Source: a virus. From it: a stretch of DNA of 25,631 nucleotides. The notes beneath the pieces were generated by a model, which ran no database searches, was not told the origin of the DNA, and saw only the letters and a list, made by a program, of their open reading frames with translations. The stretch spans positions 1 through 25,631 of the IMG/VR virus record IMGVR_UViG_3300034375_012127. One strand, written 5' to 3'. Position numbers and translations under genes: made by a program. Positions 236-4,930 of the stretch are shown here, one piece after another. Positions within the stretch are counted from its first letter, which is position 1, and the number at the start of each line of letters is the position of its first letter.

Positions 236-463
236 CTAAAAAGGTAGTTCGTCATCTTCTTCTATTTTTATAAGATTATGAAGTTTCCAAAGTGTTAATT
301 CAGCTGATGGGTTTTGTATTACTTTTTCGTTACCTTTAATCGCGCAGTGATCTGCAAGCTCTAATCGGTGCTCGTTGTTTTCAACGGTGTAAGACTTTAC
401 AACATTAGGGTGTAGTTTGATCCAATCTTTAATAATTTTTGATTTTTTATTTTGATGTTTCAT
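236..463 (-). CDS. 75-residue protein with an SSB-like acidic C-terminal tip
   Basis: The protein is small and charged, with a lysine-rich N-terminus (MKHQNKKSK) and an acidic end, IEEDDELPF. Bacterial SSB proteins end in an acidic stretch closed by DDDIPF or DDDLPF, which recruits helicases, primases and nucleases; that is established knowledge. With 75 residues it is shorter than a normal OB-fold SSB, so it may be a minimal single-strand DNA-binding protein or a peptide that imitates the SSB tail. It starts inside the last codons of repA (447-463 shared, different frame), with GGAAGAG a few bases upstream of its ATG. The two are therefore one leftward operon, probably with coupled translation. 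It ends with TAG. Residues 10-55 match no family I can name. The open frame is very probably a real gene; the SSB-related role is inference from the tail and its neighbour. Confidence 0.75.
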   Translation of the reverse strand: MKHQNKKSKIIKDWIKLHPNVVKSYTVENNEHRLELADHCAIKGNEKVIQNPSAELTLWKLHNLIKIEEDDELPF

Positions 464-1835
464 CTGACTCTTCCGTGTTTAAGTAAATTTCGTTAGTATT
501 TTTATCTTCTAATACGATGCCAAGCTCTAGAGCTTTTTTTAGTTTTTTTACGCCGTTAGATCTGTTTAGGTTTAAGGCATCGTATAATTCCATCTTTTTT
601 AATTTTTTACCATTTGATAATACGTTAATAAATTCTTTGGTTAGTTTATCTTTTTTTCTGTTTTCAGGGGAGGTTGTTTGGGCCTCCATAAGTTGCTCGT
701 TTCTTTTTATTTTAGCTTGTTCGGCATCGTAAAAATATAAGACTCCTTCATCGTTTTTTTGCATGTAGAAAATTCTGGAATCTCCGTCAGCCATGTAATT
801 TGATTTGGCGATGTTGTGGATAAAGGTTTTGTTTTTTTCTTCGGAATGCACGTTGTCATTTTGTTTGTTTGCTTTGTCTACCTCGATGCTGTGTCGGGCA
901 CCATTGATGAAGGACGCTGCACCCATAGATCCACCAGCAGAATAGGATCGGTATTTTACGTTGTCGGCAGCTTTGTTTTTATGGTGCAGTATTTCTACGG
1001 TTACGTTTAAGGTTTCACATAGATCCTCTACGTTGAGCATGAATTGCGTAGCAGTTTCGTTATCGTTCATGTCTGCTCCGTAGAGCTTGTTTAATGGGTC
1101 GGCAATTATTAGTCCAACGTTGCCGTAGTCTAAGCACGTTGCTTTTATGCAATTTAGGAACTCTTCACTTGGGTCGGTAAAAGTGCGCTTCATGCCACGG
1201 TTATTTTCACGCAAAGAAGAGAAGTCTACGGCGATGATGTTTTTCAGGTCTTGGGCGATGTCGGAAGCAGAGATTTTATGCACTTGGCAGAGGTGATTTA
1301 CGATACGTTTTAGTCTCCAATGGATTTGGTTTTTGGAATCTTCTTGTGCGATGATGAGTACTTGGCGTTTTTCTTTTACCTCGAATTTATCTAGGTATGG
1401 AAGCCCTGTAGCAATGGCTACTGCTTGCTGCAAAGTTAGGTACGACTTTCCAACCCCTCCTGCACCGTACAAAACGGTGGGAGCATTCTCGGGTAGAATT
1501 CCTTCGATTAAAAAGCTCTCAGGAGTAGGGTCGTAATTTAAGAATTCATCGAATGTAAAAACAGGAAGCACAAAGCCTTCTTTTTTAGGTGTATTTTTAC
1601 TGTCGTTTTTTGGCTGTTGGGCATTCCAAAATACCTCAATTTCTGTTTGAAAGTCTAATCCTGCTTTTTGGCAAAAAATATCGGGGATATCTCCGCACGA
1701 CATTAGGATATCAAAGAATTCATTTAATGGTATTTCTGCATAGAAGTGTTGTCTGAACAATTTTTCTAGCTCATCGAAGGCAGAATCGAGATTTTCTGCT
1801 TTTGTCAGGTCTAATTCGGCAGTCTGTGTCTTCAT
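447..1835 (-). CDS. repA: RepA-type hexameric replicative helicase / AAA ATPase
   Basis: This 462-residue protein has a RecA-fold ATPase core: Walker A GAGGVGKS at 124-131, a probable catalytic glutamate in IIAQED (about 161-166), Walker B VGLIIADP with Asp246, and LHHKNK at 283-288. A downstream SAGGSMGAASFINGARHS stretch (299-316) is typical of the plasmid RepA / phage AAA_25 family. Residues 390-455 are lysine-rich and helical and look like a winged-helix DNA-binding end. RepA-family proteins form hexamers that unwind DNA at iteron-bearing origins, and such repeats lie directly upstream here. The start at 1835 is supported by AGGAA at 1844-1840, four bases away. The leader contains a long structured element. 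The 75-residue SSB-tail gene follows with overlap. No primase domain is visible, so priming must come from elsewhere. Family assignment is firm; the symbol is by family resemblance. Confidence 0.85.
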   Translation of the reverse strand: MKTQTAELDLTKAENLDSAFDELEKLFRQHFYAEIPLNEFFDILMSCGDIPDIFCQKAGLDFQTEIEVFWNAQQPKNDSKNTPKKEGFVLPVFTFDEFLNYDPTPESFLIEGILPENAPTVLYGAGGVGKSYLTLQQAVAIATGLPYLDKFEVKEKRQVLIIAQEDSKNQIHWRLKRIVNHLCQVHKISASDIAQDLKNIIAVDFSSLRENNRGMKRTFTDPSEEFLNCIKATCLDYGNVGLIIADPLNKLYGADMNDNETATQFMLNVEDLCETLNVTVEILHHKNKAADNVKYRSYSAGGSMGAASFINGARHSIEVDKANKQNDNVHSEEKNKTFIHNIAKSNYMADGDSRIFYMQKNDEGVLYFYDAEQAKIKRNEQLMEAQTTSPENRKKDKLTKEFINVLSNGKKLKKMELYDALNLNRSNGVKKLKKALELGIVLEDKNTNEIYLNTEESDETSK

Positions 1836-1850
1836 TTTGTTCCTATGAAG

Positions 1851-1933
1851 CCTTAAGAGGGCCCGTATAGCTCTGAAAGAACAAAAGACTGCCAGAAAAA
1901 TGTACTTAAGGAGTGAGCTATACGGGCTTTTTT
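1851..1933. promoter_or_regulatory. Structured element in the repA leader: 13-bp inverted repeat plus interleaved 7-bp stem
   Basis: gcccgtatagctc (1861-1873) and its exact reverse complement (1915-1927) enclose a 41-nt loop. On the + strand the right arm is followed by six T (1928-1933), so it reads as the terminator of a short rightward RNA antisense to the repA leader. On the - strand it is a leader hairpin ending about 25 nt before the repA start. A second complementary pair, ccttaag (1851-1857) and cttaagg (1905-1911), alternates with the first, so both together would form an H-type pseudoknot, or else compete. Control of repA translation or transcription is inference. Confidence 0.55.
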
Positions 1934-1950
1934 AGGCTTTTATACGTTAT

Positions 1951-1981: not shown

Positions 1982-2036
1982 CTGGTGTGTACATTTACTG
2001 GCAACAAGGTAATAATAACAAAATAAGGCTATATAG

Positions 2037-2255
2037 GCAACATTTTGTTTGTACTTTAAAGGTAAATTTTAGAAGTTTGAGAAGTTTTTGGATGTTGCGT
2101 TTTATGTTGCATTTTTTAAAAATTTGAAGAGTTTTAAGGTAACATGAATGCTCGAGATCCGCTTTACGAAAGGGTTTGAGGTGTGTCGAAACATAAAACG
2201 TTACATAAATGCTGGAGATTCGCTCTACGAAAGGGTTTGAGGCATGTTGCGTTTT
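2037..2255. repeat. Iteron-like ATGTTGC boxes upstream of repA (candidate origin)
   Basis: The 12-mer ATGTTGCGTTTT occurs at 2092-2103, is followed directly by a tandem near-copy (2104-2115, one mismatch), and recurs exactly at 2244-2255. An inverted related pair lies at 2187-2206 (atgtaacgtttt when read leftward). Single heptamers appear inverted at 2037-2043 (gcaacat) and, with one change, at 2139-2145 (gtaacat) and 2200-2206 (gttacat). Direct and inverted boxes beside a RepA-family gene are the usual layout of an iteron origin. That they bind this RepA or a partner is inference. Confidence 0.55.
2139..2247. repeat. Two 48-bp imperfect direct repeats, 61 bp apart
   Basis: Copies at 2139-2186 and 2200-2247 agree at 41 of 48 positions, with an identical core tacgaaagggtttgagg. 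Each copy begins with a GTAACAT/GTTACAT box, so the repeat carries the iteron-like heptamer together with a longer conserved body. In the first copy, ctttacgaaag is a short palindrome. With two copies and a 13-bp spacer, this is not a CRISPR array. Confidence 0.8.
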
Positions 2256-2689: not shown

Positions 2690-4930
2690 ATGTCTAAAAA
2701 AGAGATTGCTAGAAGACTTCAAGCTTTGCAGAAACTTAGGGTCTTGAAAGCTAGAAAAAACTTGATAGATTTTGGGCTTTGTATGCTTGATAAGTACGAG
2801 CCAGAATGGTTTCACTACTTGATTGCTGACAGGTTAGAATCTGCAGAGAGAGGGGAGACTCCTCGTTTGATGATTTTTATGCCTCCAAGACATGGGAAGT
2901 CTGAGCTGTGTTCTCGTATGTTTCCTGCTTGGTTTTTGGGTAAGAATGGTGGTAAGGAAATAATTGCAGCAGCGTACTCCGCTGAACTACAGGCTTCTTT
3001 TGGTAGGGACGCTCGAGATTATGTTTTGAGTCCTGAGTATAAAGAGATTTTTCCAAATGCTCACCTACCCAAAGATGCCTCTGCAAAGACTGACTGGGAA
3101 GTACACCATGTTGTGGGTAAGAAGAAGAGAAGATCTAAGTACTTCGGTACTTCAGTAGCAGGTTCTGCAACTGGTAAAGGGGCGCATGTTTTTATAATTG
3201 ATGACCCTGTGAAAGATCGAGCAGAGGCTAACTCAAAAACTATTCGGGATCGAGCTTGGGACTGGTATACTTCGGTAGCGTATACTCGTTTGGAGGAGAA
3301 GTCATCTGCAGTTGTAGTGATTATGACTCGTTGGCACGAGGATGATTTAGCTGGTCGAATGATTGCTAAAGATAACGAGGCTTTATCTGACCCCAATAGC
3401 GAAAGGTTTTTGGAAGGCTGGGAGATTATAAGTTTACCTGCAATAGCCGAAGAAGACGAACGTTTTGAGATACACAACCCTGATTATCAAGAGAGACTGG
3501 GAGTTAAGTTTGTAGGTCGAAAGATTGGTGAACCTCTTTACCCAAAGAAGTTTCCTGTTGAGAGATACTCTCAGATTCGGGAACTTGATAGGGGGGATTA
3601 TGAGGCGTTGTATCAGCAAAGACCGTCTATTGAAGAAGGTGAAATATTTAAGAGAGATTGGTGGCATTTTTATAAAAAGTCCGATTTACCTCCTGATTCT
3701 ATTCTTGTTCTCCAGTCTTGGGACACAGCTTCTACACGTAACGAAACGTCTGACCCGAGTGTCGGTCTTACGGGTATGTGGGATGGGCGTAATTTGTACC
3801 TTACTCGTAGAGTGCGTGGCAAGTTTACGTATCCAGATCTTAAGCGAACTTTACTTGATGAATATGAGACTATTAAACCACACAAAGTTTTGGTGGAATA
3901 TAAATCGTCGGGAATTGACCTTGTTGAGGATCTTAAACAGACTTTACTTCCTATCACTCCTATTCACGTTCGTGGCGATAGCAAGTTGGCTCGTGCATTA
4001 TCTGCCACTCATCTTGTCGAGTCAGGTAGGGTGAGGCTGCCTGAAGGTGAGCTTTGGGTTGAAGAGTTTATAGATGAATTAAAGAAGTTTCCGAATGCTA
4101 AGAATGATGATCAAGTTGATGCGTTTTCTCAGATGGCACGTTACCTCCTTAACCTCATGGCTGACTCTGTATACGGAGACGATATTTCTCAATCTAACTG
4201 GTTTCCTTCTTTTCGTCCTCCGAGTAACTGGCCTATTATTCGTGCTGTTAATATTCCTTCTAATGGGGATCCTTTTTCTGTTTTATGGCTTGCTCAAGCT
4301 CATGGAGATACTGATCTTTTTGGAATCAAGTTTCCACACAATACTACGGTAGTTTTTGCTGAGCTTTACGGTACTGCGGAAGACTTCCATCCTTCGTTTA
4401 GAGGGGGGTCATACTCTGTGTCCGAGATTTTAGGGTACATTCGTCAGGTTGAGAAAAACTTTAACATGTACCCTAATCATTCGTTTTATTTTCAGGAGAC
4501 AGATGAGTTTGGATCTTTTTCTCAGACAAACTTAACGGAGTTAGTTAACGCTGGGGAGTTGATGATTCCGTTTGACCCAGATCACAGAATGACAGCCCCG
4601 TTTTTGAAACAACTTTTACGTGATGAACGTAAGCCTTTAATTATTACTTCTAATTGTAAAAATCTCTGGAGAGTGTTACCATTTTTAAAGCGGGATAATA
4701 CTGGTGCAGGTGTTTTCGCTAGAAATCAAGAAATTTCTTTGGTAGACTGTTTAATGATGGGTGTGTCTCCAATGATTCGTGGGGAGTTTGCGACTACCCA
4801 GATTACAAAAGATAACATATCTGAAAAGCAGCTGAACGATATAAGGTTCGAGAATATATTTAAGGAGTCTCCAGATGGAGGTTTTTTAACACCTTCGTTT
4901 AACCGTCCTGCTGATGGTTATGACGACTAA
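2690..4930 (+). CDS. terL: Terminase large subunit (packaging ATPase/nuclease)
   Basis: This is the motor that translocates DNA through the portal and cuts it. The ATPase has Walker A PPRHGKSE (residues 65-72), Walker B VFIIDD (167-172) and the following motif MTRWHEDD (212-219). The RNase H-like nuclease carries Asp345 (SWDTAS), Glu403 (LVEYKSSG), Asp473/Asp474 and Asp477 (NDDQVDAF), a complete acidic set. The protein has 746 residues, whereas such a two-domain TerL normally ends near residue 490-500. The extra 250 residues resemble a second nuclease-type fold with lost acidic residues (Asn521 in RAVN, Glu558 in FAELYG, Asp686 in SLVDCLMM). The ribosome binding site is weak, so translation is probably coupled to the zinc-ribbon gene ending two bases upstream. 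The portal gene follows directly. Confidence 0.95.
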   Translation: MSKKEIARRLQALQKLRVLKARKNLIDFGLCMLDKYEPEWFHYLIADRLESAERGETPRLMIFMPPRHGKSELCSRMFPAWFLGKNGGKEIIAAAYSAELQASFGRDARDYVLSPEYKEIFPNAHLPKDASAKTDWEVHHVVGKKKRRSKYFGTSVAGSATGKGAHVFIIDDPVKDRAEANSKTIRDRAWDWYTSVAYTRLEEKSSAVVVIMTRWHEDDLAGRMIAKDNEALSDPNSERFLEGWEIISLPAIAEEDERFEIHNPDYQERLGVKFVGRKIGEPLYPKKFPVERYSQIRELDRGDYEALYQQRPSIEEGEIFKRDWWHFYKKSDLPPDSILVLQSWDTASTRNETSDPSVGLTGMWDGRNLYLTRRVRGKFTYPDLKRTLLDEYETIKPHKVLVEYKSSGIDLVEDLKQTLLPITPIHVRGDSKLARALSATHLVESGRVRLPEGELWVEEFIDELKKFPNAKNDDQVDAFSQMARYLLNLMADSVYGDDISQSNWFPSFRPPSNWPIIRAVNIPSNGDPFSVLWLAQAHGDTDLFGIKFPHNTTVVFAELYGTAEDFHPSFRGGSYSVSEILGYIRQVEKNFNMYPNHSFYFQETDEFGSFSQTNLTELVNAGELMIPFDPDHRMTAPFLKQLLRDERKPLIITSNCKNLWRVLPFLKRDNTGAGVFARNQEISLVDCLMMGVSPMIRGEFATTQITKDNISEKQLNDIRFENIFKESPDGGFLTPSFNRPADGYDD

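Follow-up and report, generated by a model that had tools for sequence, protein, structure and literature searches.

A pseudoknot-capable leader that may act as a bistable switch of repA translation in an uncultured phage

The region upstream of a repA-like gene in an IMG/VR virus record (linear, 25,631 bases, analysed over its whole length and hereafter called the window) may be a cis-acting, pseudoknot-capable bistable leader switch of repA translation on the minus strand, a reading to which we give a probability of roughly one half. Three independent leaders were compared: that of the window, to which relative L001 is identical; that of L002/L005, 92-93% identical to the window in DNA; and that of L102, whose RepA is 60% identical to that of the window and which has a near-copy, L106 (99.9%). 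Since there are only three such sequences, of which two (window and L005) are 92-93% identical, with few changes in each of the elements called U and S1 below, our confidence in the leader-switch reading is moderate. RNA-only control of rep genes is so far known mainly from plasmids, where it usually depends on antisense RNA; were the reading true, such control of replication-protein synthesis would extend to an uncultured phage group, and the leader would be self-contained and open to a simple reporter assay. The features are, in window coordinates:

447..1835, minus strand: repA-like gene, 462 aa, AAA_25 / RSF1010-RepA-type helicase, start codon 1835-1833
1818..1825, minus strand: repA codons 4-7, AGACUGCC, complementary to loop segment GGCAGUCU (1893-1886)
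1835..1844, minus strand: Shine-Dalgarno and spacer, AGGAACAAAA, adjoining the AUG; complementary to S1 loop 1877-1886
1851-1857, no strand assigned: one arm of a 7-bp pair, CCTTAAG; other arm CTTAAGG at 1905-1911; not kept in L005
1861..1873, minus strand: S1 3' arm in the mRNA, GAGCUAUACGGGC; perfect inverted repeat, one compensatory change in L005
1877..1886, minus strand: anti-Shine-Dalgarno (anti-SD) segment within the S1 loop, UUUUGUUCUU; L005 lacks one U here and has C-G in place of a U.G
1890..1905, minus strand: Lp, segment GUACAUUUUUCUGGCA of the S1 loop; complement of U
1915..1927, minus strand: S1 5' arm in the mRNA, GCCCGUAUAGCUC; perfect inverted repeat, one compensatory change in L005
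1952-1960 and 1973-1981, minus strand: two DnaA-box-like sites, TTATTCACA, 21 bp apart, between U and S1
1989..2003, minus strand: U, UGCCAGUAAAUGUAC, with which the predicted repA mRNA begins; complementary to Lp over 6 + 8 bp
2012..2040, minus strand: predicted repA promoter, TTGCCT-17-TATTAT, the -10 being preceded by TG; consensus matches only

The gene and the stem of its leader

The 462-aa RepA-like protein matches AAA_25 (Pfam, E 3e-30) and primase/helicase families among the PHROGs, and in a structure search it matches weakly the solved structure of RSF1010 RepA (1g8y, E 0.006); TAL-effector matches from the same search, which span about 50 residues and include no significant stretch, were set aside as a profile artefact. 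An AGGA Shine-Dalgarno precedes its start codon on the minus strand. The promoter predicted for L102 at the equivalent place, TTGACC-18-TATCAT, likewise consists of consensus matches only. No further relatives of the leader were found in viral contigs, species genomes, and phage or plasmid records, nor in the bacterial genomes scanned, and a search with the exact S1 pattern returned a sole match, an identical contig. In GenBank phages and plasmids the relatives of RepA are only 22-30% identical, as compared at the protein level. An 18-nt loop pattern, tried as a marker of other carriers, matched five contigs, all unrelated.

Among the elements of the leader, stem S1 has by far the strongest support. 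It is, exactly as a sequence-only reading of this DNA had reported, a perfect 13-bp inverted repeat, GCCCGTATAGCTC (1861-1873) and GAGCTATACGGGC (1915-1927). The repeat encloses a 41-nt loop, lies in the repA leader on the minus strand and has been retained in relatives. No other perfect inverted repeat of at least 13 bp within 100 nt occurs in the window (dinucleotide shuffles, 0.18 per window), a duplex as strong is met at 0.03% of comparable positions, and the folding z-scores of the region range from -3.7 to -5.6. All 13 pairs are kept between the window and L005, one of them passing from G-C to A-U by changes on both sides (1865 and 1923); strict covariation thus amounts to a single base pair, for which a shuffle control on two rows is uninformative. 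At the equivalent place L102 carries a stem, AACCCGGUUCUGAGA/UCUCAGAACC(U)GGGUU, that is unrelated to S1 in sequence and has a stem energy of -23.1 as against -24.2, and across the lineages the loop of such stems measures 40-65 nt. From the compensatory change in L005, and from a stem of unrelated sequence and near-equal energy at the same place in L102, we infer that S1 is very likely a selected structure, which bears out the earlier claim of a structured, pseudoknot-capable leader near the repA start codon. The arm GCCCGTATAGCTC resembles the 5' end of a tRNA, a likeness that we regard as coincidence, as ARAGORN finds no tRNA and the L102 arm is unrelated. Rfam gave chance-level matches only, all below the gathering score, and no known riboswitch or leader family.

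The pseudoknot first proposed for this leader combined S1 with the 7-bp pair 1851-1857/1905-1911. That pair is indeed present in the window and interleaved with S1, but L005 carries three changes in 1851-1857 and none in 1905-1911, and loses two of the seven pairs. Comparison with relatives, the check that had been suggested for both stems, therefore upholds S1 (one compensatory pair, none broken) and goes against the 7-bp stem. The pair is weak evidence to begin with: CTTAAG is self-complementary, so that any two copies pair; moreover, its 3-nt connector across the 13-bp stem would be strained, and the match is best regarded as accidental. The L005 change at 1856, within this arm, preserves a small hairpin on the Shine-Dalgarno, UC(U/C)UA/UAGGA, formed on the minus strand by UAGGA (1845-1841) and the complementary UCUUA (1858-1854).

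Possible pairing of the S1 loop with the predicted mRNA 5' end and the start region

As judged by complementarity, the interleaved pairing that recurs is that of the mRNA 5' end with the S1 loop, in addition to a pairing of the loop with the start region; the idea of a leader pseudoknot hence survives as a pseudoknot-capable interleaving, wired through U and the S1 loop and not through the 7-bp pair. In the window, U (UGCCAG-U-AAAUGUAC, 2003-1989) pairs with Lp (GUACAUUU-UU-CUGGCA, 1905-1890), and the predicted mRNA of L102 begins with UGACCGAAAAC, which can pair with the S1 loop over 11 bp. U is complementary to Lp in three lineages, and the predicted promoter places it at the mRNA 5' end in all of them, U starting 9 nt (window) or 8 nt (L102) past the predicted extended -10 box. 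The pairing was spotted first in L102 and afterwards tested in the window, where equal-or-better matches at equal spacing gave p 0.0047 for energy and 0.009 for the 8-bp run, and shuffles gave 0.0015-0.0055; the corresponding values in L102 are p 0.007 for the 11-bp run and, against its own contig, 0.085 for energy. Between the loop and the start region, the window has two separate complementary runs of 8 bp (p 0.0008), and L102 has one (p 0.04). All of these p-values are partly post hoc, since segments were partly picked by eye; when limited to -25..+6, loop complementarity to the Shine-Dalgarno is no better than in shuffles.

Read on the mRNA strand, three one-sided differences that L005 shows within the helices discussed (at 1903, 1878 and 1856) replace U-A by U.G or U.G by C-G; read on the opposite strand, or in DNA, they would create or abolish mismatches. 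Since these differences preserve pairing on the mRNA strand alone, they favour the repA mRNA as the active molecule. They also bear on a rather unlikely alternative, in which the region is an origin or operator acting as DNA: the repeats would be initiator or repressor sites around the repA promoter, together with DnaA boxes, and the complementarities would arise from repeated motifs, TTGCC-like in the window and TTGACC-like in L102. It draws on the pair of DnaA-box-like sites in the leader, which lie 21 bp apart and are kept in L005 (the relaxed consensus has 6 matches in the window, with 2.9 expected), on the recurrence of TTGACC at the -35, Shine-Dalgarno and codons of L102, and on the 61-bp-spaced repeats that adjoin at 2136-2247. 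The three L005 changes, however, keep RNA pairing by G.U and would spoil DNA symmetry or not need it, the DnaA boxes are absent from the L102 leader, and the arms differ wholly between lineages while the architecture is constant.

The proposed switch and the antisense question

In the leader switch that we prefer, the mRNA would run, from its 5' end, through U, the S1 5' arm, the loop (Lp and anti-SD), the S1 3' arm and the Shine-Dalgarno to the AUG. S1 and U:Lp would exclude each other as simple folds and could stand together only as a pseudoknot, and the part of the loop beside Lp could alternatively pair with the Shine-Dalgarno and first codons, so that RepA translation would follow the fold adopted by the nascent or mature mRNA. 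The site of transcription start, the formation of these pairings in cells, the control of translation, its polarity and its trigger are what we infer; the trigger may be folding kinetics, processing of the 5' end, translation of a mini-ORF at U, RepA itself or another factor. The minimum free energies calculated for the S1 and U:Lp folds are -40.5 and -36.2 kcal/mol in the window, -42.8 and -42.3 in L005, and -41.2 and -44.2 in L102; near-isoenergetic, mutually exclusive folds are thus predicted across the lineages. In calculations that ignore pseudoknots, the Shine-Dalgarno is predicted to be somewhat less accessible in the U:Lp fold in the window and L005, by a modest difference, and its accessibility hardly differs between the folds in L102. 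Forced-helix energies for Lp with the Shine-Dalgarno describe nested folds that lack S1 and were not taken to estimate the energy of a loop:Shine-Dalgarno pseudoknot.

More tentatively, the 5' bases of the mRNA might compete with the ribosome-binding site for the hairpin loop, free of any antisense RNA, with loss or occupation of the 5' end setting RepA output. Mini-ORFs without a clear Shine-Dalgarno start in or beside U, namely MYTPVIHI (8 codons, 1994-1968, minus strand) in the window and MTENSLPLKM (10 codons, near 1774-1742, minus strand) in L102; they are possible leader peptides, of a kind common by chance. A simpler account, which we judge unlikely, takes S1 as a simple, stable hairpin at the 5' end that shields the message or makes RepA synthesis slower, and ascribes the other complementarities to chance: S1 does stand far above the rest in support, and the alignments are too few for the other pairings, but two lineages whose leader sequences are unrelated show U:Lp independently and at the same position.

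On the plus strand, where a countertranscribed RNA with its own terminator had been suggested, TTTTTT directly follows the second S1 arm (1928-1933), and in both the window and L005 weak A-U/G-U pairs extend S1 into the T-run. This run is eroded to CTTTTG in L005, the 41-nt loop is unlike that of an intrinsic terminator, no plus-strand terminator is called at S1, and a consensus scan for sigma-70-like promoters (other promoter types being possible) finds none on this strand upstream of S1 in the window, L005 or L102. With no such promoter, an eroded T-run and a 41-nt loop, the antisense RNA appears unsupported, and nothing in the sequences speaks strongly for it. The IncB/IncI-alpha-like model of the sequence-only reading, in which the pseudoknot of S1 with 1851-1857/1905-1911 is joined by a plus-strand antisense RNA ending near 1933, is accordingly very improbable: its elements are present in the window and the extension into the T-run is seen in both phages, but it must contend with the two broken pairs of the 7-bp stem as well as with the state of the T-run, the loop and the promoter scans in three lineages.

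Known systems and neighbouring repeats

In ColE1 RNA II (alpha/beta/gamma) and in the rep attenuators of the pT181 type, one segment with two exclusive partners decides the outcome, at the primer in ColE1 and at termination in pT181, both via antisense RNA. The leader resembles them in having one segment with two mutually exclusive partners, and differs in lacking, in both the window and L005, a T-run after S1 on the mRNA strand. Attenuation by exclusive folds has been described (PMC8383071), as has the requirement of repZ translation for a pseudoknot and its block by Inc RNA (PMC8383071). As in ColIb-P9 (IncI-alpha), IncB and IncL/M, whose rep leaders carry a hairpin with a loop that pairs to a remote segment close to the rep start, the arrangement would form a translational switch; unlike there, the recurring partners of the loop are the mRNA 5' end and the start region itself, and neither antisense RNA nor leader-peptide coupling could be shown. 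We looked for a kept second stem near the rep Shine-Dalgarno and for an antisense gene with a sigma-70-like promoter and a terminator and found neither, so the leader is not classed as IncB/IncI-alpha.

Among phages, the leader pseudoknot of T4/RB69 gene 32, of about 28 nt, is the nucleation site for autogenous repression by gp32 (PMC535899). The likeness lies in a 5' pseudoknot, here a predicted capability of the leader, ahead of the ribosome-binding site in the mRNA of a phage replication protein; unlike T4 gene 32, the present leader has no UUAAA array and its RepA no known RNA binding. Extrachromosomal mycobacteriophages have RNA-based origins, with non-coding initiator RNAs beside parABS (PMC7157519), which set a precedent in phages for RNA replication functions like those of plasmids, whereas the present RNA is the leader of a RepA-like gene.

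Further upstream of repA, the window holds two iteron-like direct repeats of 51 nt, 61 bp apart (2136-2247) and 84% alike, for instance AAATGCTGGAGATTCGCTCTACGAAAGGGTTTGAGG; a similar motif lies upstream of repA in L102. Between repA and terL there is a large imperfect palindrome (2301-2413), unchanged in L005 and a candidate packaging or replication site, and L102 has a palindrome (1920-2035) with a different centre and similar ends, CCAAGGGTATCT ... TACCTTGAA. Outside its matched terminase domains, the terminase large subunit itself (2690-4930) has about 250 additional residues.
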